From Parapristionchus giblindavisi (Eukaryota > Nematoda > Chromadorea > Rhabditida > Diplogasteridae): DNA of 64,000 nt. The notes below the pieces were generated by a model. The model had not been told where the DNA came from. It ran no database searches and saw only the letters and a program-made list of their open reading frames with translations. Below are positions 2,320-56,749 of the stretch, in pieces (within the stretch, counting starts at the first letter, position 1; the number at the start of each line of letters is the position of its first letter). The translations under genes and the position numbers were made by a program. The stretch spans positions 106,721 through 170,720 of the forward strand of contig CALSFV010000123.1 in NCBI GenBank assembly GCA_943737045.1, read 5' to 3'.

Positions 2320-2550
2320 TCTTCAATCCTTTACTTCAAATATCATGTTTTATTCCTAAAAATATCGAAAAGAGGAAAACTTACCGTCCGTTGACGGTTT
2401 CGATAGGAGAAATGAAGATAAAATGTGAGAGTGAGAGTTGTTGAAAAGAACTTTTACTCGATTTGAATATAAACAAATTATACTGTGATATGAGAAAGGC
2501 TTTGTTCGTGAAAGTAAAATCAAATTAATTCATAGGGATTTCTGAATGGC

Positions 2551-2639
2551 ACAGTGAACCTCTACCCAATGGGGTTGGCCATCTTCAGTAGAACCCCCAT
2601 TGAGTTAGTTTACATAAAAGTTTATTATGATAGTTCTAT
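2551..2639 (-). repeat. Downstream terminal direct repeat (pseudo-LTR) of the Penelope-like element
   Basis: Base-for-base identical to 6968-7056. On the minus strand it holds one stem I strand (GGTTCTA), a CTGAAGAT core, GGCC, and ends with TTCACTGT. The copy ends exactly where a hammerhead would cleave (one base short of position 17), so the 3' end of the element coincides with the predicted cleavage site. Confidence 0.85.
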
Positions 2640-3052
2640 AGCAAAATCATGCAAAATCTCATTTCTAATGTTAATAATAATACAATAACGTGAACGTATA
2701 CATGAAAACAATACAAATCAAAACTGTATGAAAAATATTAGTCTAATATTACCAAAATTCATGCATATATCTTTTAGCGAAAGTGACACTAATATGTATA
2801 TTGTAATCCATACTTACGTATCCTTGAGCCGAATCGATTGAATCCTTATTCCCTGGGTAGTTGTCCCTCTCATATCGATTGATGCGAGTCGACAGGGATA
2901 GAATGAGAGAAGAATGGATAGAGTGAGAGAGGCGCATGTGTGTCTCTGTTCAGGTAGATCACTAGGTTGCGCTGTCATTATCGATCGTCTGGGAAGTGGT
3001 CTGTCTACTTCTACCTCTTATTTGAAACATTGACTATACCAAAGCACGTTTA

Positions 3053-5815
3053 TCATAGACAACGCATGCAAATATCGCTATTACTAGTTGCATATTTAAT
3101 GGATATTGATGGATTAGTATTCAATGTTCTGAATATTCTTTTATGCACTAAGTATATAGGGTAGTCAATCGATACAAAGTATTTTGTCAATGATTTCATT
3201 CTGTTAACGAAGTCTTTATATTCAGAACAATTCCTGTATATGCGAATAGTTTCACCATGCAGTGTATTTAGACCAATATTAACAGGAGAATTTGATTGAT
3301 AATGGGGATATCGAATTACGTTGAATTGATAATCATCTGTTTTATTATAAAGTGAGGTTTTAACTTGACCGCTATTAATTATATCTATTTGTAGATCAAG
3401 AAAAGCGCAGTTATTATCCTGATTGTTAGTTCGTTCTAAAGATAAAGATTTGTGGTACATTTTACTAGTTAATTTTATGAAATCCTTGCATTTACTGGAT
3501 ATATGGAATAAATCATCAATATATCTATACGTTCTATTTAGTGAATATGCTAATGCATGACCACCTTTGACTTTCTTAGATAGATATTGAAATTCCATTA
3601 CAGCAAGGGTAAGATCTGCTATTTGTGGCGATGCATTATTTCCTTGTGGTATTCCTCGCTCTTGTTTGTAATATGTTCCACCATAAAAAGCATAACTGTT
3701 CTTTAATATATAATCCAACATAAGTTTAATATCATTTTTGTGATAAGTGATGCCTTTTTCTAAACTATTAGTTTTATCATAACGAACAAAGGTTCCTTGA
3801 ACATTAATAAATTCTGAATTAGCATTTTTGAATAGTAAATCAATGAGATAATATAATTTTTCTTTAACAACTTTATGTGGTAAGTTAGTAAATAGTGATG
3901 CAAAATCAGCACAGAATATCTCATTTTTCCCGTTTGTAATGTTTTTAAAATCGTTTAACACTTTAAAAGTATTTTGAACAGAGAAGTAAACGTTAATCCC
4001 ATTATGTCTAGAAGTAAAGTTACAGTATGATTTAAAGTGGTTTTGTAAGAACTTAAGGATTCTTTGAAGTCGAATTGATAATGGTTTAAGACTACTATTA
4101 TGTGCACCAGTGATAAATCGGAATTTTATTGGTGTTTTGTGCATTTTCGGTATTCCGTATATACGAGGGAGAGCACATTCCATATTTCTGGGAATTGACA
4201 TACTGAGTGTGAACTGTAAGTGATCTTTGATCTTTGATTCGTAATCGAGGTCATTAACTTGTACATAAGTTCTTTCATTACCATTGGATGTATTCATCTC
4301 TTGTTCCATCATCATGACATATAACTTTTTACAAGTGAATGCATAATTTCCAGATGCTTTGTCTACCATAGTAATTACAAAGTCATTTTTTAGTTGTTTT
4401 AACTGATCAGTATATCGTGTTACGTCTTTTGCGTCAATATTTAAATTCAATTTATTAAGCTTTTCCTTTAGTCTAGGAATAATATGTTCAATGACTTTAT
4501 TGACAGTGGCATTGATCAAAGTCGGCGATTTTCGGTGTTTCTTTCCGACAATTGATACAGTGTTCTCTATTGAAACAGTAATATCGTTGATTACTTTGCT
4601 GACAGTAGTAGGTCTTTGTATTCTATATTTGGTGCCTTTCATGAATATATTAGCTAGTTCTTTATTTTGTATGATATCAATGTTACCAGTACATACATGT
4701 CCATAATGTTTATCAACATATCTGTGATATTTGAAACAAGAACAAGGAGAAGACAATATCCTATCTATATCATGTCTAGTTAGGGTTTTGAGAAACTGTC
4801 CGTAATTGCAGAATATTGAAGATACTGGATTATCTAAAGAATATGAAAGTTGAATTCTCGTTTTATCTTCTTCTGTAAGAGTTTTAAATGAATCTTTCAT
4901 GGTTGCTGAGTTCATCATCTTGCTCAAACCTATTTTCTCCATGAATTTTCCCAAAAATGGTAGTTTCAAAATGACCTTGTTACTATTATCATATTGTCTC
5001 TCCTTGAAATTTCTCCAGTAGTGAGGACATACAACACTATATATTTTGTATTTCATTTCATGTGATAACTGACTAAACTCGTTAGTTGCTGTGAATATTT
5101 CTATCCTGGAAAGAGTATGATGTGGCAGTTTTCTACTGTACATGAAAAGTTCTCTTGTTTCGATAATTTCTATTTCACGAACGATTTCTTCAATAGATTT
5201 GGTACATTTGTATTTTGGCTTTCTTCGTTTTCTATTTCGAGCTCTATTACCGCGGTTTTTAATGTTACCTTCGATATGTAGAGAGTAATATGGATGAGAT
5301 CGTTTCTCCAATGGATTAATACCTTCTGAAATGTATCCAAAGTTTTTAATTGAGTCATTCAGTCCAAGTGGATATGCACTGTTTAGAGCTTTAATCCATA
5401 GTAATTCTTTTTCTCGGAGTTCACTCTTGCCCTTTCCGTAGTCTAATATATCGATTGTGAAAGATTCTTTATCATGACCTACTTCTTTGAAATGCCTACT
5501 TAGAAAGGTTTTCAATTTGTTGTTTGAAAAGGAGTAACGATGTTGACTCATTCTTGCTTTGACAGTTTGAGTAGTTTCTCCAACATATTGCATACCACAA
5601 ATTTCACAAGTGATCATATATATTACATTCTTTGTTTTACATGATAGATTCTCAGGTTTATTTGTGAGGAAAACGTCATTAGTAATGTTGCTAAGAGCTG
5701 CTGTCTTCCATTTCATTTTAGGACAGATAACACATCTTGCTTTATTACACGACGATCCTGTATGATCTGAATAATTTCCCAGTGAGATAATACTTTTTCC
5801 TTCTTCCCGGCTCAT
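3053..5815 (-). CDS. GIY-YIG endonuclease / reverse transcriptase of a Penelope-like element (920 aa)
   Basis: Single uninterrupted ORF. Residues 23-31 carry closely spaced cysteines (C23, C28, C31), then a GIY-YIG-like core at about 64-79 (NVIYMITC...MQYVGET) with R88, a Glu in the LREKELLW helix near 135-138 and GLND near 151-154. After a linker rich in basic residues the RT follows: FVITMVDKASGNYAF (fingers), PRIYGIPKMHKTPIKFRF, motif A DFASLFTNLP (about 638), motif B RGIPQGNNASP (about 720), motif C YRYIDD (about 765), then CAFLDLQI and a thumb. PLEs normally carry GIY-YIG at the C-terminus; the N-terminal position defines the Naiad/Chlamys clade. The ORF has no internal stops and all catalytic motifs look intact, so the element may be active. 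The ATG at 5815 starts right before the Cys cluster. Clade placement within PLEs is inference. Confidence 0.88.
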   Translation of the reverse strand: MSREEGKSIISLGNYSDHTGSSCNKARCVICPKMKWKTAALSNITNDVFLTNKPENLSCKTKNVIYMITCEICGMQYVGETTQTVKARMSQHRYSFSNNKLKTFLSRHFKEVGHDKESFTIDILDYGKGKSELREKELLWIKALNSAYPLGLNDSIKNFGYISEGINPLEKRSHPYYSLHIEGNIKNRGNRARNRKRRKPKYKCTKSIEEIVREIEIIETRELFMYSRKLPHHTLSRIEIFTATNEFSQLSHEMKYKIYSVVCPHYWRNFKERQYDNSNKVILKLPFLGKFMEKIGLSKMMNSATMKDSFKTLTEEDKTRIQLSYSLDNPVSSIFCNYGQFLKTLTRHDIDRILSSPCSCFKYHRYVDKHYGHVCTGNIDIIQNKELANIFMKGTKYRIQRPTTVSKVINDITVSIENTVSIVGKKHRKSPTLINATVNKVIEHIIPRLKEKLNKLNLNIDAKDVTRYTDQLKQLKNDFVITMVDKASGNYAFTCKKLYVMMMEQEMNTSNGNERTYVQVNDLDYESKIKDHLQFTLSMSIPRNMECALPRIYGIPKMHKTPIKFRFITGAHNSSLKPLSIRLQRILKFLQNHFKSYCNFTSRHNGINVYFSVQNTFKVLNDFKNITNGKNEIFCADFASLFTNLPHKVVKEKLYYLIDLLFKNANSEFINVQGTFVRYDKTNSLEKGITYHKNDIKLMLDYILKNSYAFYGGTYYKQERGIPQGNNASPQIADLTLAVMEFQYLSKKVKGGHALAYSLNRTYRYIDDLFHISSKCKDFIKLTSKMYHKSLSLERTNNQDNNCAFLDLQIDIINSGQVKTSLYNKTDDYQFNVIRYPHYQSNSPVNIGLNTLHGETIRIYRNCSEYKDFVNRMKSLTKYFVSIDYPIYLVHKRIFRTLNTNPSISIKYATSNSDICMRCL

Positions 5816-5839
5816 TATATTATAGAGAGTTAATGGAGA

Positions 5840-6060
5840 GGAGGCTGTTTTGGCGTTAGGTTTTGCGAGCTGGTTAAGGGATGCTCATCCCGAGGCTTTG
5901 TGGGCCGGTCGAACGGACAATATGGTGGGGCTGCCACCGAGGTGCGACTCCCTAAATAGGGAACCTCTACTAGCCGGACCGCTTTACACCCCCACACTCC
6001 GCCCGACCTTTCGTCGGTGTGGTAGGGTGGTCACTGCCGTCCTTATCAATAAAATATTAT
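5840..6060 (-). other. GC-rich, hairpin-rich leader of the Penelope-like element
   Basis: This block upstream of the RT start is far more GC-rich than its surroundings and holds many short perfect inverted repeats: GGGATG/CATCCC (5878-5890), CCCTAAATAGGG (about 5951-5962), CCGAC-GAAA-GGTCGG near 6003-6018 and GGTCCGG/CCGGACC-like pieces. This suggests a structured RNA leader (translation or packaging), but I could not fit it to a known ribozyme. Confidence 0.45.
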
Positions 6061-6940
6061 GTATATGAATAGTTTATTATAGAGATATAAGCTAGGTTGT
6101 ATAGTTACTCAAGTAAAATGAGCTAAGTTATTAATAAAAAGTTTATTATAAAAGAAAGGAGTTCAAAATGCAGTCAAACAAAAGAGCGATGCATAGTTAG
6201 TTACGACTAACTAGTCTAGAGGGGGGTTTTGACAAACTGATTTGTCATAATGTTTTATTTTGGGAAGAAGTATATTATATAAATCTAGACAGTTATGCAA
6301 CTGGGAATTATAATAAGCAAATGATGTGGAAAACCTTGATACCGTTATGTTATTAGTGAATGTGATTGTGTGTTGTGTGTATAACAATTAAAATGAATGA
6401 AGCTTGATATGTATGTGTATGAACTGTGTAATAGAATAACATGAAAATGCGATTAACAGTATTTACATTTATTTAATGCTATTTAATAAAGTTTATTTAA
6501 GAAAGTTTATTATGATAAGAAATGAGATATCTAACTGTCCAACGTCGCTAACGCTAATTATGTGGGACAGAAGACAATAGTTATACGTCCACCGTGGTAC
6601 TAGACCACGATGGGTCGCCAGCTGAAGTTATGCCGGCCCGGTGTCGCACAGAGTGCTGAGTTATTTCGAGATAATATATAGAAAAGTTAATCAGAGAGTA
6701 CATGATAACGTATATGATAGAAGAGGAAAAGCAAAATAATAAGCATGAATAGAAAGATAAGGATAAATAGTGATTGATGATAATCCCCACCATCTGTGGA
6801 GCGGAGCTAGGCTCTCACATACACACAGAACGGAGGAGACATAGACAAATTATAAGCGAAATATGAAATAGTTAAACATGCAAATGTACTCATAAAATTA
6901 GATAATAATGAATCTAAAGTAGTTATTAGTAGAGGCGAGA

Positions 6941-7056
6941 TTCACTGTTTCGGCCATTAGGTTCTAGACAGTGAACCTCTACCCAATGGGGTTGGCCATC
7001 TTCAGTAGAACCCCCATTGAGTTAGTTTACATAAAAGTTTATTATGATAGTTCTAT
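6941..7056 (-). ncRNA. Upstream pseudo-LTR with hammerhead-ribozyme segments in permuted order
   Basis: On the minus strand, all parts of a hammerhead are present. Stem I: TAGAACC/GGTTCTA (6960-6966 with 7006-7012, 7 bp). Stem II: GGCC/GGCC (6952-6955 with 6994-6997). Stem III: TTCACTGT/ACAGTGAA (6941-6948 with 6968-6975, 8 bp). Core: CTGAAGAT (7005-6998), GAA (6951-6949) and the cleavage-site C (6967). All three helices are perfect. However the substrate strand (stem III 3', C17, stem I 5') lies between the CTGA and GAA strands, instead of outside them, and one extra T follows CTGAAGA. So it must act as a pseudoknot, in trans, or between the two element ends. Hammerheads are known in Penelope-like elements; this order is the odd part. 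Confidence 0.6.
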
Positions 7057-7059
7057 GTG

Positions 7060-8003
7060 GACGTCGATGTGTCATCCATGGCAGTGAAAGTTAGCGAGAC
7101 TATTCATCAATCCCATGTCAAATGAGGGCTCGAATCCTATTAAAATCGCGATCTATATATGTACTTTTTAATGTTTGCGGGAGTCTAAGGATGAATTTCA
7201 ACAAATCAGTGTCATTTACACTATCATTTATGTTATTTTTATTGAGATCAGTGTTAATTGAAACGAGTGATAAATTAAAATATCTTTATCAAAATTATTT
7301 ACTTCAACAGTTTAACAGGATAAGATGGAGTTGGAAATGATACGTGCTTCTCAGGAGACACGCCTGAAATTCAATATCACATTTGTACATCAATTTTTTT
7401 CATTCGAATCAGCAACCAAAGTACATTTGATAATAATGCACAATAAAATTGAATTAGCATGACTGATATGAATAGCTAATTAAGAATACATCGTAATTAT
7501 CGTTCTATTCATTTGTTATCATTTCATTTCATAGTCGACCTCATTCTGATTGGTGGTCTTGTCTTCGATTCATCCACTCTGATCAAACATCCACGCTCTC
7601 TTATATTATGTTGAAGGTATCTTTAAAGAAGGGGACCCATGAGTTGGCATGACTGACTCCCGCCACGATAAGCATGTTGGCTATTGTTAATATTATATGG
7701 TAATTGACGTAAGGGACAATGAGAAAATGAGAGAGAAAGTATGCAAATTACATGAGCACTCTCTACATGCCTTGAAAGTTGTACTTTCAATGCGCATAGT
7801 GAGCTTTAAACATATCGGGAATCAATATCAGATATGTCTTCCGATTCGTATGATGAATCTCTATTATTCTATCCGAACAGTCTTATTACGAAAAAACTCG
7901 TGGGTCTCCATCTTTAACCCTCTCTTCTTTTCTCTAAAACCCAGAAATATTATAAATCATTAAACCTTTTAAGAAAGTAATCTTTCCTAACTTTCCTAAT
8001 CCT
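7060..8003. other. Intergenic, no gene recognised
   Basis: Short ORFs at 7122-7340 and 7697-7963 have no recognisable motif, no good splice context and AT-biased composition. I see nothing else here. Confidence 0.5.
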
Positions 8004-10799: not shown

Positions 10800-11850
10800 T
10801 AAATACGTTTCCCTGTCGTTCATGGAAGGTAAAGTAAAGAGAGGTCGTGGGTGAGTTTTGAAGGACCATAATTCAAGTCTCAAACGAACTCTGACATGTA
10901 TTTGAAAATTATACATTTTTATTATTATTCAGGGTTACTATCTTCGAAGGAACGAGAATCTGAAGGATGCTCGCCTACCTTCACCACGGGTTGGTTTGTT
11001 TTCCAAAATATGTGTATACTCTTCATGCCCCGGATCAGAGCTACGCCTACGGAATGCTCAAGGTCCCACATATGCGGAGTTAGAATATATGACGTGGAAG
11101 GGGGACACGTGAACTGTTTCTCTTGTCCATAATTGCACCCGGCTACATTTAGCAATCTAAAACAAGACTTGATAGTTCTACGTTGATTGATTGTTTTAAA
11201 CATAGCTAAGTTATGAATTTGCAGAACGTGCATCACTGCTCCATCTCGGAATCGAGATTCGCTGACACCTCGCTTCTGCGTTTGCGTGGACAAGCATCAT
11301 GTCTATACTTTGATTTATGTTGGCAGGTTTGCAGTCTATTTTTATTCATGTACTGGCTCTTCATGCCCCGGATTAGAGCTACGCCTTTGGAATGCTCTAG
11401 ATCCCACATATGCGGAGCAAGAATGTCTGACGTGGAAGGGGGACACGTGAACTGTTTCTCTTGTCCATAATTGCACCCGTCTACATATAAACTTTTCTGA
11501 TCTCATGATTTGTATTTCAGTCCAGAAGATGGTAACTCTCGGTGAAGGTGTTTGTATCGGACACACCTCAATTCTTGGCGATATGAGAAAGCTCGAGGAT
11601 GGAGTCGATGTCATCGTCGGAACCCTTGGTCGTCCCAACATGATTCTCCGTAAGTTGTCCTGCACTCTTACTTTCCCCTTCTCAAAAGCACCTGTATCTG
11701 TCTATACGGTTGCACGGCTGTCGTATGAAGGTAGATGATCTAGTTTCCGATTGGGTGAGATTTGAACGATATAAAGTTCAAGTCTCAAACGGATACTTAC
11801 ATACACTACTTTTACTTTAGTACTAATGGTTTCATTTCAGATACAAGATG
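10800..11850 (+). pseudogene. Decayed eIF4A copy that retains introns
   Basis: Parts match the functional eIF4A gene at 47700-49885 in order but with deletions. 10930-11000 resembles the exon starting GGTAACTATGA and its CACCACTGG end. 11015-11165 and 11357-11490 both resemble the intron at 48452-48602. 11521-11648 matches the exon [12 protein letters not shown]...TPGRV with deletions that remove the residues between VTLGEG and VCIGHTS and change TPGRVND to TLGRPN. 11649-11820 matches the next intron almost base for base. Exons carry indels and the DEAD-box exon is absent, so no helicase can be made. Retained introns show it arose by DNA duplication, not retrotransposition. A further partial intron copy lies at 10838-10895. 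Confidence 0.75.
11685..11804 (+). ncRNA. Copy of the intronic H/ACA-like snoRNA candidate in the eIF4A pseudogene
   Basis: Nearly identical to 48804-48922. The lower stem ACCT/AGGT, upper stem ATACG/CGTAT, box H AGATGA, the 11-bp stem GAGATTTGAAC/GTTCAAGTCTC and the ACA box (11799-11801) are all kept; the differences fall in the terminal loop (GATATAAA in place of GATTCAA) and outside the helices. May be expressed only if the pseudogene is still transcribed. Confidence 0.45.
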
Positions 11851-12587: not shown

Positions 12588-13712
12588 ATGATGTACCGAT
12601 CGATAATTGCCCTTGCCTTTGTCTCTTTCGCCTTAGCTGTTAATTCTACGGTAAGATACAGTATCCACTAGCAACCGTAGTTCATGTAATCCGTTCAGGA
12701 TGCCCCACAGAACGGAACTGAGCATCATGGAGGCATTTCTGGGTACGATCAATGATATTTTTGTTCATTCCAAATGAACATATACTAAAATTGGAACAAT
12801 ACAGAGAAGATTAGCATGGCCCATGCGCAAGGATGACACGCAAATTCGTGAAGCGTTCCAAATTTTTTTTCGCACCTGTCACGGGTGTATCAAATAAATA
12901 AATAAATATTTCTATCTACTCGTAAAGTCTGATTGCAGTTTTTTCGAAGGTATCAAGGACAATGTTGTGAAGACTTGGAATAATGTCAAACACAGTTTCG
13001 GTAATGAAACTTATGATCTTTGATCTTTATAACCAAATAGCAATTATGAGTCATGATAAGTTGTGATTTATAAAAGACTTCTCTAAACATATTATAGTAA
13101 TTCTATTGTTGTAGACAGTTGTATTATTATCCACCATGATACAATGTGTTCTCGGTGAAATCGTGAATTTTGCGAAAACATAGAAAATCATGTGGTAAAA
13201 AGAAATCTTTGTTCGTAAAATGATACACTCACGGCAAATTCTCTCAGATATAGGATGTCTAACTGTTCAGCTATAAAGGTTAGCTTACTCAAAACTCTCT
13301 CAAAAAGACGCGTTAGATAATACTCTCTCGCTCGAGATATTTAGTAATGGGGACTGGAGTAAGCTTACTAACAATAAGTTTTCTCACATATGAGATAACG
13401 TTTCTCTAATTGTCACATCTTAGATAACGTATACGTTTTTTCATATATGAGAGAGTTTGCCGTGAGTGTAACTTGGAGTGAATCAATGAAATACTTCCCA
13501 TTACAGAACACAATGTGGAGAATTTGAGAAACGAGACGAATCATACTCTTGACAATGTAAGTTATGTCATACTTACGATTATTATTTAAAGAATATTGAA
13601 AATAATATAAATGCATTTATATTATTTTCAATATTCTTTTTTAATGATTAAGGTGGAAGGATTCGTAATCAATCGTATGGCTGAACTCCGTAATCATACC
13701 GATCATGTCTAA
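12588..13712 (+). CDS. Small secreted protein, five exons, unknown function
   Basis: Exons 12588-12650, 12699-12742, 12939-13000, 13507-13556 and 13653-13712 join in frame with GT-AG introns. The product starts MMYRSIIALAFVSFALAVNS, a clear signal peptide cleaved near AVN-ST, followed by a hydrophilic mature part of about 70 residues, including GGISGFFEGIKDNVVKTWN, NETNHTLDN and a C-terminus RMAELRNHTDHV. Several N-x-T sites (NGT, NET, NHT twice) suggest glycosylation. The mature region could form amphipathic helices. Intron 2 holds a U6 snRNA on the same strand; intron 3 holds a TA-flanked MITE; intron 4 holds a 52-base perfect palindrome. No family recognised. Two adjacent ATGs at 12588 and 12591; I took the first. 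Confidence 0.7.
12763..12868 (+). ncRNA. U6 spliceosomal snRNA
   Basis: Contains the 5' stem-loop GTTCAT-TCCAA-ATGAAC, the ACAGAGA box (in CAATACAGAGAAGATTAGC), the catalytic AGC triad, the internal stem region GATGACACGCAAATTCGTG and the 3' part AAGCGTTCCAAATTTTTTTT with a Pol III terminator. It matches the C. elegans U6 sequence as I remember it except in the 5' stem-loop and at GGCCCATG. It lies in intron 2 of the small secreted protein gene, same strand, only 20 bases after exon 2. A normal upstream Pol III promoter element (roughly -45 to -65) would therefore overlap that exon; this could be a functional nested gene or a dispersed copy. Confidence 0.93.
13226..13468. mobile_element. MITE with Tc1/mariner-like TA target site
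   Basis: Terminal inverted repeats CACTCACGGCAAA...TTTGCCGTGAGTG, extended imperfectly to about 25 bases, flanked by TA on both sides (13224-13225 and 13469-13470). 243 bases, no coding capacity. Internal CTCTCTCAAAAAGACG-type sequence recurs at 42112-42245. Confidence 0.8.
13588..13639. repeat. 52-base perfect palindrome in an intron
   Basis: AAAGAATATTGAAAATAATA...is followed without spacer by its exact reverse complement, centre at ATGCAT (13611-13616). It can form a cruciform or a hairpin RNA in intron 4 of the small secreted protein gene. Confidence 0.85.
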
Positions 13713-23761: not shown

Positions 23762-25977
<2,216 letters not shown>

Positions 25978-26249: not shown

Positions 26250-26440
26250 CAATAAACATTTGGTAGTCCAACTTAATGGGGTTCTACTGAAGATATCAAG
26301 CCACATTGAGTCGAGGTTCACTATCAAGAATCTAATGGCCAAAACAGTTCATCTCGCCGCTACTAATAACTACTTTTGTTTCACTATTTCCCAATTCCAT
26401 GACTACATTTTCATGTTTATGATGATCTATTTACCACAGC
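26250..26440 (+). mobile_element. Diverged fragment of the Penelope-like element terminus
   Basis: Matches the minus-strand sequence of about 7045-6870: GGGGTTCTACTGAAGAT, GAGGTTCACTAT, TAATGGCC, ATCTCGCCGCTACTAATAAC. So the copy lies in the opposite orientation to the full element. The ribozyme core CTGAAGAT is kept, but GAA has become AAA and stem III no longer pairs, so this copy should be dead. It shows that the head sequence upstream of the ORF belongs to the element family. Confidence 0.75.
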
Positions 26441-47699: not shown

Positions 47700-49885
47700 A
47701 TGACTGATGCGAACAACCAGTGAGTAATCGATTTGTTCATTTTCATATGTTTAGTTGGCTTGGTTTTGTTAGTAGGTATGCTGACGAAATTCTTCATTTT
47801 CAATGATTTCTGTTTTTGAGGAACAAGAATGTGAATAACGGCGCTACTGGCGAGGCTCCTGCCGTCGGAGTCGACTCCGATGGTGTTATTGAGGTAAGAA
47901 ATGTTTAAATTTTCGTTATTTACCCCGGGGAATGAAACTAGTGCTCTAAAAAGAAACGTTCGTTTCTATTTTTTACAAATTATCCCATGTAAGAAAAATC
48001 TAAGAATCTTAACGAATACTATTTAGGGTAACTATGATACCGTTGTCGAATCTTTCGACAACATGGATCTGAAGGAAGATCTTCTTCGTGGAATCTACGC
48101 ATTCGGTTTTGAGAAGCCTTCTGCAATCCAGCAGCGTGCCATCGTGCCCTGCACCACTGGTTAGTTATTTACAATTACGTTATTCACATTCAGCGTTATC
48201 GACCTCATTGTCAATATGTTTTATCCAGGGTAGTAGTGCATGGCAATGTGTAGGTCTCCGTTTACGAGGTCGCAGTCCCAGTTGTAGCTTTTTAATGCAA
48301 TATTTTAAGGTCGCGATATTATCGCTCAAGCCCAGTCCGGAACTGGAAAGACTGCTACCTTCTCGATCTCGATTCTGCAGAGAATCGATGAGAACTCTAA
48401 TCATCTCCAAGCTCTCGTTATGGCTCCCACTCGTGAATTGGCTCAACAAGTAATATTTTTTGGCATTTTTGGATTCTTGACCCAGGATTAGAGCTACGCC
48501 TTTGGAATGATCGAGGTCCCACATGAGTGGGAATTTATGATGTGGAAGGGGGGCACGTGAGCTGCACTTATGCTCTTTTTGGCTCTCATGATTTGCATTT
48601 CAGATCCAGAAGGTTATGGTAGCTCTCGGTGACTACATGAAGGTCAAGGTTCATGCTTGCATTGGAGGTACCTCCATTCGTGACGATCTAAGAAAGCTCG
48701 AGGATGGAGTTCACGTCATCGTCGGAACTCCTGGCCGTGTCAACGACATGATCAACCGCGGAGTTCTCCGTAAGTTTTTTGCACTCTTACTGTTCCCTTC
48801 TCAAAAGCACCTGTATCTGTCTATACGGTTGCACGGCTGTCGTATGAAGGTAGATGATCTAGTTTCCGATTGGGTGAGATTTGAACGATTCAAGTTCAAG
48901 TCTCAAACGGATGCTCACATTCATTGTACTTTAGTTTGTTCTGTAGTAATCCAAATTGTGGTTCAGGTACTGATGGAATCAAGATGTTCGTTCTTGATGA
49001 GGCTGACGAAATGCTTTCCCGTGGTTTCAAGGACCAAATCTACGAGGCTTTCAAGACTATGCCCCAAGAAGTTCAAGTCGTACTTCTCTCCGCTACCATG
49101 CCCGCTGAAGTATTGGATGTAACTCATCGATTCATGAGAGATCCAATCAGAATTCTCGTCAAGAAGGAGGAGCTTACCCTTGAGGGTATCAGACAGTTCT
49201 ACGTCAACGTAGACAAGGATGTAAGTATTCATATTTGATTACTGATTGCTTTCAAATACCTCCGGTTTGAGCCTTGTTTGTATGCTTATTTCGGTAGTCA
49301 GAGAAAGCGACATAAAAATTTGCCGGAAAGGGATTTACGAATTTCTATCTTTCGTAAATATAATTCTGACAATACAATATCAATAAATATAGAAAATGCA
49401 TTCATTTTCAAAGAAATATTGTTCTTTTATAGGAATGGAAGTTCGGAACTCTCTGTGATCTGTACGATGCTGTCAACGTCACACAAGCTGTAATCTTCAG
49501 CAACACCCGTAGACGTGTCGAGCAGCTCACTGATCAGATGACCAAGAAACAGTTCACTGTATCATGCCTCCACGGAGATATGGAACAAGCAGAGCGAGAC
49601 CAGATTATGAGGGAGTTCCGATCTGGATCTTCTCGTGTTCTCATCACAACCGATTTGCTCGCTCGTGGTATTGACGTGCAACAAGTTTCCCTCGTAATCA
49701 ATTATGATCTCCCATCCAACCGTGAAAACTACATCCATCGTATCGGACGATCTGGTCGTTTCGGTCGTAAGGGTGTTGCTATCAACTTCGTCACTGAACA
49801 GGACAAGCGCCAACTCCAAGATATTGAAACTTTCTATACCACTATTATCGAGGAGATGCCCATGAACATTGCTGATCTCCTTTAA
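47700..49885 (+). CDS. inf-1: Translation initiation factor eIF4A (DEAD-box RNA helicase)
   Basis: Unwinds 5' UTR structure as part of eIF4F. The spliced product starts MTDANNQNKNVNNG, then [34 protein letters not shown] (Q motif), [11 protein letters not shown] (motif I), PTRELAQQ (Ia), TPGRV (Ib), VLDEADEML (II), LLSATMP (III), [12 protein letters not shown] (IV), [20 protein letters not shown] (V), [13 protein letters not shown] (VI), and ends [11 protein letters not shown] at 49885. Seven exons with GT-AG introns, full family length of about 400 residues. The fourth-to-fifth exon intron (48773-48966) holds an H/ACA-like snoRNA candidate; the preceding intron (48452-48602) holds another element conserved in the pseudogene at 10800-11850. 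Start chosen at the first ATG after a leader without upstream ATGs nearby. Confidence 0.97.
48478..48592. other. Conserved intronic element of eIF4A, unknown nature
   Basis: GGATTAGAGCTACGCCTTTG, GGTCCCACATG, GATGTGGAAGGGGG-CACGTGA recur at 11022-11110 and 11363-11450, and a weak match (GCTGAGGTCCCATACAAGGG) is at 61173-61192. Could be a SINE fragment or a second structured RNA. On the minus strand GCGTAGCTCTAATCC...GGGTCAAGAATCC loosely recalls Pol III boxes. Confidence 0.4.
48804..48922 (+). ncRNA. Candidate H/ACA snoRNA in eIF4A intron
   Basis: Two hairpins with box H and box ACA can be drawn. 5' hairpin: lower stem ACCT/AGGT, pocket, upper stem ATACG/CGTAT. Then AGATGA (48852-48857) fits ANANNA. 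3' hairpin: lower stem TCCG/CGGA, pocket ATTGGGT/AAA, upper 11-bp stem GAGATTTGAAC/GTTCAAGTCTC. ACA lies at 48917-48919, five bases after the lower stem. The pseudogene copy (11685-11804) keeps all paired parts while its exons have decayed. In vertebrates eIF4A genes host H/ACA snoRNAs in introns. Hand-folded only; target rRNA site not identified. Confidence 0.5.
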
Positions 49886-53200: not shown

Positions 53201-56200
53201 AAGTATTGTTCAAAATACTATGACTTTTGTATTGATAGAAGAGTGAAAGATGTAATCACCTTTCAGTTACTGATTCTCAACCTATTCATCCATTTCAGAA
53301 ACTTCGTAGTGTCGATGCACTTTCGCTTCTTCTTCATTCATTTGAATTGAATGATAGACATATTCCATCAATCGATGCTGATCTACCTGTTGTTGTGAAG
53401 GAGAAGGTATTGATTTATTCATTGATCAGCTTGATACGGTATCGATAAGACATCGATATTTATTCGTTATCGTATCTAAAAGGAGGCATATATGGATAGA
53501 AAGGGGGGGGGGCAATGATAGGGATATGATAATAACTAATCTAGGATGTATCATATCAAGCATCTCGTATGTCAATGTTATCTCATCTTCTATCATCTAA
53601 TGCATTCATATCCAATGATCTACTTCCATCTGCTGTGATTGATGATGTTCCTCCATTGAGGTAAGTATTGATTAATTACTGACCTACTCTATTACATATA
53701 GGAAATTAACTGGAATGTGGGTTAGCTTATTTTACTGATAAAATAATGAATTAGTTCTTATTCGGAGTCAGTTCCTCAATTAAATCGAGCCTTCATTATG
53801 ATTAGGAGTAATACTTCATCAATCAAACATAAATCACCCATCTCAATTCAGACGTGCTGCAGTATGGCGTGCCCTCCTCTCCGTATCTCCACTCGATGGA
53901 TCGATATTCGATGAACTTGATACCGTATCCCCTCATACAAGTGATCGACAATTGGATGTCGATATACCAAGGTATACGGCAGATTATTGATTACTGTTGA
54001 TCGTATTGATTAAGATGCCATCAGTACGAGGAAATCATGACATCGCCGTCTGCTCATTACAAACTGAAAAGACTTCTCAAGGTATGCTAGAGGAATTGAT
54101 GATGGATTACGGTAGTTGATGGATACTGTAGTTATTGAGTACGATATTTATCGGATACGGTATCTGACCCTGATTCAGGCATGGCTTCATGCTCATCCTC
54201 GATATGTGTACTGGCAGGGACTTGATTCACTCGCAGCTCCATTTCTATTATTGAACTTTGAGAATCTACGTGTGTTTATTCTATTGATTTAATGTATTGA
54301 TTATTGATTGATTTATCTCTTCAGCGATGGCTCTAGCGTGTATGTCATCATTCATCGATCGATATCTCAAAGATTTCTTTCTGAAAGACAACTCGAATGT
54401 CATTCAAGGTATAGGGATACTTGGTGGATTCATGTTTATCATTCGATATAAGACGAGATCTGTATTATCATTGTCCGATTCAGTTCCTATTTTCTAGAGT
54501 ATCTAGCAGTATTCAATCATTTACTCTCATATGTCGATGCTTCATTGTACACTTGTCTGACTGATATGGATTTCTTCCCTGAGGTTAGACTACATCTATG
54601 AATGTAAAGAAGCATATAAAAATATTTAAAAAATGGAAATAAGAAATATATTTATTGAAAAAAAGAGTAAAGTAAAAGAAAGATGATGGAATGATGAACT
54701 ATCACTGACTATTCATGATAGTGGATCAGATTATTGTAGATAGATGAACTAGTTGATAATCAATCAGTATAGTCAGTCAATAATTCGATCAAATAAATCG
54801 ATATTCCATTCAGTTATTCGCCATTCCATGGTTTCTCACTTGCTTCGCTCATGTTCTTCCCCTACACAAACTTCTACACGTATGGGATGCACTTCTAAGA
54901 GCGGAAACTAGTTTCCCTCTCTTCGTGGGTATGGTATACTTTATTGATTGGTGAATATCGATTAGACTCCATTTGATTATCGATTGATGGGTACTGTATT
55001 GTGTTCGTTATAGGAGTCTCAGTACTTCTGCAGATGCGACCATCTCTCATTGGAGCTTCATTCAATGATGTCATTCTCTTATTCTCTGATCTACCTGGTA
55101 TCGATTGATTTCGCCTTCACACTGTAACTTAAATTATTGATTTGTAGATCTCCAAATAGATCGTATTCTATCTGATACGATGGAATTGTACACGACAGTT
55201 CCACGTAGTTGTGTGCATCTAGCACAGCGAAAGGATGAAGGTACGGTAGATATTGATTAATTATTTTGATAACATTTTATTGATTGATCGACTTGTGGGA
55301 GCTACTGAGACTATTGGATCTTGTTTGATGTATTTTGCGAAGATGATTGATAAGCATGGCTTACATGTGGGGCGAGATGAAAAGAGGTAGAGAGGAGTGT
55401 GAGATAGACGGATCAAAGATTAGATATATCCTTTGATTGATGTGATAAGGAAGAATGATAACGATGTCTATTCATATTTTGTCTTAATATGTTTGGTAAG
55501 AGTGACACAATGATAATAGATTCTTCATATCACCAGGTGAAATCATGTTCCACAAATTCTTCATCACTTGTAGTTCTTTGATATATTTGATTCTGACATT
55601 CTCTTAATTCAAGGTAGTGATTCAATGGAAGAATTGAGTGTATCTGAGTTGAAGTCCTTCTCATGTCCTCGTCTATCAACTAAAGATCTTATTAGATTAG
55701 TTAAGAATGAACAAATTGCTATTATCGATGTACGATCCACACCTGAGTATGTTTACTCTATTTATTGATTGATCTTGTTTAAATTTGATCATTTCTTCAG
55801 ATTCTATCGAGGAAGTGTGGTTCGAAGTGTAAACTATCCTAATGTAGATGATGTTACTCTGTCTACGATCAGGTTTGATCTTTGATCTCCAAGTAGAATT
55901 TGGTTTAGATGGGTAAACTGATGATATTTTATCTTACATCTTGTTATGCTTTTGGCTTACGGTGTTTTTCATAATCAACGTTTATACATCAATAATGATT
56001 CCTTTTAATGAATATTTGATTGTAGAACTATCCTGGAGACAGCTCAGAATAACAAACATCCTATATGTATTGTAGATGTGAAGACACTCATATCTGCTAA
56101 GAAGGTATATATTATTGTTGTTTTGCATCTCAAGGAGCCTGAATATCAACTTTTTAATATCATATAGTTCATTCATTCATTCATTCATTCATTCATTCAT

Positions 56201-56749
56201 TCATTCATTCATTCATTTATTCATTCATTCATTCATTCATTCATTCATTCATTTATTCATTCATTCATTCATTCATTCATTCATTTATTCATTCATTCAT
56301 TCATTCATTTATTCATTCATTTATTCATTCATTCATTCATTCATTCATTCATTCATTCATTCATTCATTCATTTATTCATTCATTCATTCATTCATTCAT
56401 TCATTCATTCATTTATTCATTCATTTATTCATTCATTCATTCATTCATTCATTCATTCATTCATTCATTCATTCATTCATTCATTCATTCATTCATTTAT
56501 TCATTCATTTATTCATTCATTCATTCATTCATTCATTCATTCATTCATTCATTCATTCATTCATTCATTCATTCATTTATTCATTCATTCATTCATTCAT
56601 TTATTCATTCATTCATTCATTCATTCATTTAGTTTTCATCTCTTCTGGTTCGTAATGGAGTGTGTGGTGTATGCATCCTCGATGGTGGATATGATGCAAT
56701 CAGAACTGTATCTACCGTAATCCATGTACGTTCAGCTAATACTTTATGA
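50280..56749 (+). CDS. tbck-1: TBCK: pseudokinase, TBC (Rab-GAP) and rhodanese-like domains
   Basis: Starts [20 protein letters not shown] at 50280. Kinase-like part: [25 protein letters not shown] in place of a HRD loop, LAHFGLS in place of [29 protein letters not shown], so a pseudokinase. TBC domain: [88 protein letters not shown] (53950-55090). Rhodanese-like: [20 protein letters not shown] and [13 protein letters not shown], then [15 protein letters not shown], ending [14 protein letters not shown] with TGA at 56747; no CxxxxxR active-site loop. This is the full TBCK layout of about 900 residues. A transposon (51357-52230) sits in a kinase-region intron and a 460-base ATTC repeat in the last intron. 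TBCK acts in endosome-mTOR signalling in animals; nothing here tests that. Confidence 0.92.
51357..52230. mobile_element. Non-autonomous DNA transposon in a TBCK intron
   Basis: Ends CAGACATGGCCCATGGTTAT and (reverse complement of right end) CAGACATGGTCAATGGTAAT form terminal inverted repeats of about 24 bases. Inside, ACCCACCCGCA units occur near both ends (51391, 51421, 52152, 52186) and a second inverted pair GTACCGACAGAG / CTCTGTCGGTAC (51651, 51824 against 51975) marks a nested or composite structure. 51628-51918 is an ORF without motifs. No target-site duplication that I can defend. Confidence 0.75.
56167..56632. repeat. (ATTC)n tetranucleotide repeat, about 465 bases
   Basis: ATTC units with scattered ATTT variants, filling the last intron of TBCK between the two rhodanese-like exons. 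The 201-codon ORF of repeated FIHS residues is a repeat artefact. Confidence 0.97.

Follow-up and report, generated by a model that had tools for sequence, protein, structure and literature searches.

The question raised by this locus is whether the minus strand of the window (the whole stretch of 64,000 nucleotides analyzed here) encodes a hammerhead ribozyme whose conserved strands come in a permuted order, as the first-pass annotation had proposed, and what such an RNA does in the mobile element that carries it. A complete hammerhead core is present on the minus strand at 7022-6937, with its strands in the order CUGAAGA, cleavage strand, GAA. Our best explanation, which we hold with high confidence, is a non-circularly permuted hammerhead of type CSG, located within the pseudo-LTR of a Penelope-like retrotransposon that looks young and has an N-terminal GIY-YIG domain. 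Judged from sequence, this RNA is very probably a self-cleaving ribozyme.

When the minus strand was read, all core and helix parts that had been proposed were found at their coordinates (Table 1). The three helices, given earlier as 7, 4 and 8 bp, are all present, but stem III has in reality 12 bp (one of them G-U) and stem II has 5 bp. Stems I-III of the earlier inventory stand, whereas an 11-bp helix that joins the tips of stems I and II, here termed P4, had been overlooked. Stems I, II and III are mutually crossing. We know of no tested precedent for the extra U between the core and stem II.

Table 1. Features of the putative ribozyme and of its host element (positions in the window).
Feature	Position	Strand	Basis or remark
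Stem I strand GGTTCTA	7012-7006	-	
CTGAAGA (CUGAAGA core), block C	6999-7005	-	sequence
GGCC of stem II, first strand	6997-6994	-	
TTCACTGT, part of stem III	6975-6968	-	
Predicted cleavage C17	6967	-	scissile bond 6967/6966; placed by comparison with the hammerhead core
Stem I 3' strand TAGAACC	6960-6966	-	pairing
Link TAAT	6959-6956	-	as given in the first-pass annotation
GGCC of stem II, second strand	6955-6952	-	
GAA core	6949-6951	-	sequence
ACAGTGAA, part of stem III	6948-6941	-	
P4 5' strand ACTCAATGGGG	7012-7022	-	11 bp with 6991-6981; covaries between families
P4 3' strand CCCCATTGGGT	6981-6991	-	pairs with 7022-7012
Stem I 5' strand GTTCTA	7006-7011	-	pairs with 6966-6961; possible further pair at G7012
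Extra U between core and stem II	6998	-	also in families B and J; missing in D, E and F
Stem II 5' strand GGCCA	6993-6997	-	pairs with 6956-6952
Stem II 3' strand TGGCC, block G	6952-6956	-	pairing
Stem III 3' strand GAGGTTCACTGT, block S	6968-6979	-	pairs with 6948-6937, 12 bp
Stem III 5' strand ACAGTGAATCTC	6937-6948	-	pairing
5' terminal-repeat segment, unit positions 1-208	6849-7056	-	upstream of the ORF; contains the ribozyme
920-aa ORF	3053-5815	-	GIY-YIG at aa 63-146, then reverse transcriptase at aa 563-786
3' partial repeat	2551-2639	-	identical to 7056-6968; stops one base before the predicted cleavage C
Decayed ribozyme segment, ~81% similar	26263-26359	+	stems broken

Such a set of helices might reflect chance complementarity, a reading to which the self-complementary GGCC of stem II lends something, or a diverged canonical hammerhead in the ordinary order. 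A descriptor of the CSG order (minimum lengths 5, 4 and 6 bp for stems I, II and III, G-U allowed) gave one match in the window versus none in 7.68 Mb of first-order Markov sequence. In a scan of all six block orders with stems of at least 5, 4 and 5 bp, this CSG site was the sole match in the window, and 5.12 Mb of null sequence yielded one match, of the order SCG. The circularly permuted orders CGS, GSC and SCG (types I-III) had no match in the window at these thresholds. No Rfam hammerhead reached the gathering score in the window, and a search of the region 2400-7200 up to E = 5 returned nothing from Rfam. Rfam (2400-7200) and the six-order scan (window) thus rule out that the element has a canonical hammerhead, and the two Rfam results rule out a known Rfam family. 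The null scans and the covariation described below rule out a chance match at the sequence level; taken together, these results leave the two readings with next to no probability.

Comparison of copies was the check that the first-pass annotation had asked for, and it went in favor of the permuted hammerhead: two-sided changes occur in all four helices, namely stems I, II (outermost pair only) and III and P4. In the genome (251 Mb, 703 contigs), a pattern for the window-type ribozyme (family A) had 209 matches (control, 5). A second pattern, which fixes CTGANGA, GTCV (GTC plus a non-T) and GGCCGAAAC, and hence four stem II letters too, occurred at 217 places (control, 0); the two sets share at least one place. 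Families D, E, F and J were obtained from some of these 217 matches, read with their flanks, and family B from an element group with 64% protein identity. Stem I is identical in A and B (GGTTCTA/TAGAACC) and reads TCCTA/TAGGA in D, GTCTA/TAGAC in E, TTCCA/TGGAA in F, and TATACCCAG/CTGGGTATA in J; the sequences of stem III and P4 likewise differ among families, with pairing kept. Among 21 ribozyme segments, 14 were compared (L012, L031, L034, L060, two of L059, and L077 were excluded). Seven of the 14 entered the pair count, which excluded near-duplicates of A (L024, L065) and five segments with broken helices (div, L075, L076, L080, L082), read as decayed copies. After trimming of the helices by hand to a common register, 198 of 200 helix cells are paired in these seven representatives (P4, 60/60 in six families; stem I, 35/35; stem II, 35/35; stem III, 68/70). 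Swapping whole 3' strands among families gave mean pairings of 72% (P4), 80% (I), 90% (II) and 73% (III), and the observed pairing was reached in 3, 1, 59 and 1 of 2000 swaps, respectively. Stem II lends little to the case because one pair alone varies in it and the pattern fixes four of its letters. P4 has 10-12 bp in eight of the nine intact sequences and is missing in J, a single intact sequence with no known host element. The exact family-A pattern had no match in viral contigs, and the D/E/F-type pattern none in viral contigs or prokaryote genomes.

Six block orders of the hammerhead were defined by Eckert et al. 2023 (PMC10085705). The first-pass annotation, which knew of no described hammerhead with this order, was wrong on that point, as C-S-G is type CSG of that paper and cleaves in vitro; its idea of a permuted hammerhead is borne out by the block order and the covarying helices. 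Order, tip-joining helix (P4) and helix covariation all place the RNA of the window in type CSG. In the accessible part of PMC10085705, the type comprises two similar sequences with modest covariation and no stated genomic setting. Their rates of in vitro cleavage are 0.004 and 0.026 per minute, and the tested RNAs cleave co-transcriptionally; the biological support of the type was judged by the authors to be weaker than that of type SGC. Our RNA resembles these sequences, likened here by order and description rather than letter by letter, in block order, core letters, the helix joining stems I and II, and the predicted cleavage site. Unlike what that part of the paper describes, it occurs in several families, some of them in retrotransposons, with covariation of four helices and with insertion ends at the site. 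As far as described there, type SGC is likewise non-circularly permuted, with two pseudoknots and with stems I and II joined by a short link, but has the order S-G-C instead of C-S-G. Penelope-like hammerheads, in the accessible parts of the review by de la Pena 2017 (PMC6155905) and of PMC11167929, also lie in the pseudo-LTR; they are usually minimal, without helix III and tertiary contacts, in contrast to the CSG order, long stem III and P4 found here. No title or abstract placing the CSG order in a retrotransposon was found in a literature search that took in few of the subscription papers. CSG is a known but very rare order, and the retrotransposon setting and the genome evidence look new.

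The host was examined through its ORF, which encodes a GIY-YIG domain and a reverse transcriptase; the match to RVT_1 (Pfam) scores 24.1, below the curated cut-off of 29.6, with E = 3.3e-5. Both domains in one ORF, together with terminal repeats or tandem units, identify a Penelope-like element, and the domains of the ORF confirm the N-terminal GIY-YIG proposed earlier. GIY-YIG N-terminal to the reverse transcriptase is the Naiad-type order; the element shares it with the Naiad clade of Penelope-like elements, reportedly described by Craig et al. in 2021, and the putative Naiad label is based on this domain order. The best 20 of 50 scored protein matches in the genome are full-length with 98-100% identity, so the family looks young, and 17 of the 20 have no stop; viral contigs held no relatives of the ORF. 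There are 115 GIY-YIG matches genome-wide, 58 of which (contigs C1-C204) were compared with 97 A-type and 86 fixed-letter places, a chance match to the A-type pattern (C202:1777474) being left out of these places. A ribozyme pattern lies on the same strand at element distance in 31 of the 58 (21 of A type and 10 of fixed-letter type). In plus-strand cases, family A lies 1378-1380 nt upstream of GIY-YIG (three cases) and the fixed-letter type 1458-1459 nt upstream (four cases). Families D and E are in the same kind of element as A; neither F nor J yielded a placement of this kind. Within the 701-nt 3' regions of L070 and L071 (from the group at 64% protein identity), two family-A queries match the ribozyme and nothing else. 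No pattern match was found near the other 27 GIY-YIG matches, which include C92 and C51, where a ribozyme was read separately, and a group of 938-aa proteins. This group (in G000, C16:1027578, C37:430684, C49:401357 and C2:1231443) has no ribozyme found by pattern and may carry another ribozyme form.

Traces of cutting were sought at the insertion ends. Among the 30 loci L039-L068, 28 have a mapped 3' end (L062 and L066 show none). In 27 of these 28 family-A copies the ribozyme at the 3' side is uncut, and the copy extends 118-131 nt beyond the predicted cut, its last base corresponding to 6849 or lying at most 13 nt further on. Insertion 3' ends downstream of the ribozyme are also a feature of the PAc element of Anolis, in which, according to the accessible part of PMC11167929, reverse transcription is initiated at an internal site of the RNA, 3' of the ribozyme. 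The window copy alone ends at the predicted cut less one base (2551); its 5' flank holds TTTCACTGCCAT, and microhomology may explain this end, so we place no weight on it. The exact family-A pattern has three genome matches with a non-C at the cleavage base, one of which (C39) is a point change in a complete ribozyme, and no exact family-A copy in the genome ends at GTC. With 27 of 28 copies uncut and none ending at GTC, cutting would be inefficient, regulated or dispensable.

At the other end of the insertions, the first base of 15 copies (six of family A and nine of family D) is, by this kind of count, the one immediately 3' of the predicted cut, and no CTGANGA was seen upstream of them. The count was made at the cut position alone, with upstream bases read for two of the 15, and required a non-C before the stem I 3' strand (TAGAACC in A), which misses C-flanked starts. 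All six non-C matches of family A lack CTGANGA 15-45 bases upstream, and one has a chance CTGAATGA; the C28 pair among them may be one event. Two further copies have C17 changed and TTCACTGT intact, and neither is among these six. Family D has 12 non-C matches: nine without CTGANGA upstream (one of them with a chance CTGA), two C17-to-T changes with block C in place, and one unclassed (C252). These 15 starts suggest that the ribozyme cuts in vivo. The cut position (unit 91) is not found among 19 distinct mapped family-A starts (positions -358 to 1303, at least 93% identity), which were counted by hand from a list of 46 rows that covers several families and repeats some lines; some of the 19 may be rearrangements rather than insertion starts. 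A cluster of family-A starts lies at unit -6 to 18, about 73-97 nt upstream of the cut (L010, L015, L039, L026 and L016), with an identical start base in L010 and L015. TCACTG-like words, which resemble the stem III strand, occur in the 5' flanks of L040, G000:C3:306503 and the window copy (7057-7100), and five other 5' flanks have none; these words may reflect target preference, strand transfer or chance.

Folding was computed with a program that handles no pseudoknots. The window RNA folds at -34.8 kcal/mol (shuffle mean -24, z -3.3), a value reached by none of 200 shuffles, and its minimum-energy fold contains a nested skeleton, the P4 hairpin followed by the stem III hairpin. The z values of families B, D, E and F are -2.9, -3.4, -4.3 and -2.1 (2, 0, 0 and 6 of 200 shuffles as good). 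Four of the five minimum-energy folds have the two-hairpin skeleton and all five have P4; in family F, stem III is paired differently. All five also have some extra pairs within the hairpin loops, which must give way if stems I and II are to form. The nested skeleton allows the ribozyme to be read as two adjacent hairpins whose loops could kiss via stems I and II; the pseudoknotted cis form that had been thought sterically conceivable is supported. The tips of these two stems would be bound to each other by the link and, on the opposite side, by P4, as the hammerhead fold needs.

From these data we infer the following fold, catalysis and order of events. The RNA would first fold into the P4 and stem III hairpins. 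The loop of the former would present block C, in which CUGANGA stands between one strand of stem I and one of stem II; that of the latter would hold the cleavage C, followed by the partner strand of stem I, the short link, the partner strand of stem II, and GAA. Kissing of the two loops would place stems I and II side by side, and the usual hammerhead core would form and cut after C6967. Part of the element's transcripts would be cut in this way. Reverse transcription would usually start ~118 nt downstream of the cut site; on a cut template the cDNA would stop at the new 5' end of the RNA, giving an insertion that begins exactly at the cut, and on an uncut template it would continue through the site.

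The same parts could act otherwise. Two separable hairpins joined only by loop-loop helices also suit pairing in trans, in which the P4 hairpin of one repeat or tandem unit would supply block C to a stem III hairpin that lies in another one or in a separate RNA molecule. Two repeats ~4.4 kb apart are present in many elements, and minimal Penelope-like hammerheads reportedly cleave as dimers (Luense 2017). However, no more than ~1 base separates the P4 and stem III hairpins in families A, B, D, E and F, which favors cis action, and the CSG RNAs tested in the accessible part of PMC10085705 cleave co-transcriptionally; we consider a mainly trans-acting ribozyme improbable. We consider it a shade less probable still that the element's protein recognizes the fold as a conserved structure, for instance to place reverse transcription, with catalysis weak or lost. 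The apparent start of reverse transcription ~118 nt downstream of the site would fit such a role, as would the PAc element, whose ribozyme mutants still insert and whose cleavage needs protein, according to the part of PMC11167929 available. Against it, insertions begin exactly at the cut in two families, and the catalytic letters are kept despite differing stems, although the search pattern itself demanded most of these letters.

The ribozyme might also make RNA circles, by cutting and ligation of units, as templates, as proposed for retrozymes. This idea, which is unlikely though not far-fetched, is compatible with a CSG ribozyme acting in cis and draws on scattered 5' ends and on copies that exceed one unit and contain intact ribozymes internally, both of which a tandem template fits equally well, and on L052 and L055, which span almost exactly one unit. 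Tandem genomic arrays (such as that in C48) account for the same copies. Returning to the preferred reading of a type-CSG ribozyme that cuts some transcripts, its boldest extension has, in our view, slightly less than an even chance: CSG would be the standard ribozyme of the whole permuted-ORF branch of Penelope-like elements, having evolved with it from a minimal canonical ribozyme, would act by kissing of two hairpins, and its cut would set the 5' end of some insertions.

Hundreds of pattern matches in a single genome, several families, covariation of four helices and starts at the predicted cut site would make CSG a real biological ribozyme. Its presence in many copies of an abundant element, some of which begin at the predicted cut, provides a natural home and, probably, a job, and the host element is a setting in which its role is testable. 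It would also exemplify the re-wiring of a functional RNA, with a double loop-loop pseudoknot in place of a three-way junction.

Several other features were observed in the window. A complete U6 spliceosomal RNA gene is located at 12763-12867 on the plus strand (109.9 bits), from which the DNA is that of a eukaryote. An exon of a DEAD-box helicase (Pfam DEAD), which looks like eIF4A, was detected at 48616-49122 on the plus strand, with a stretch of 86% similarity at 11565-11802 on the same strand. Long simple repeats, of GA/CT type and with a short TCATT-like unit, were recognized from repetitive ORF translations at 24437-24952 and 56115-56720.
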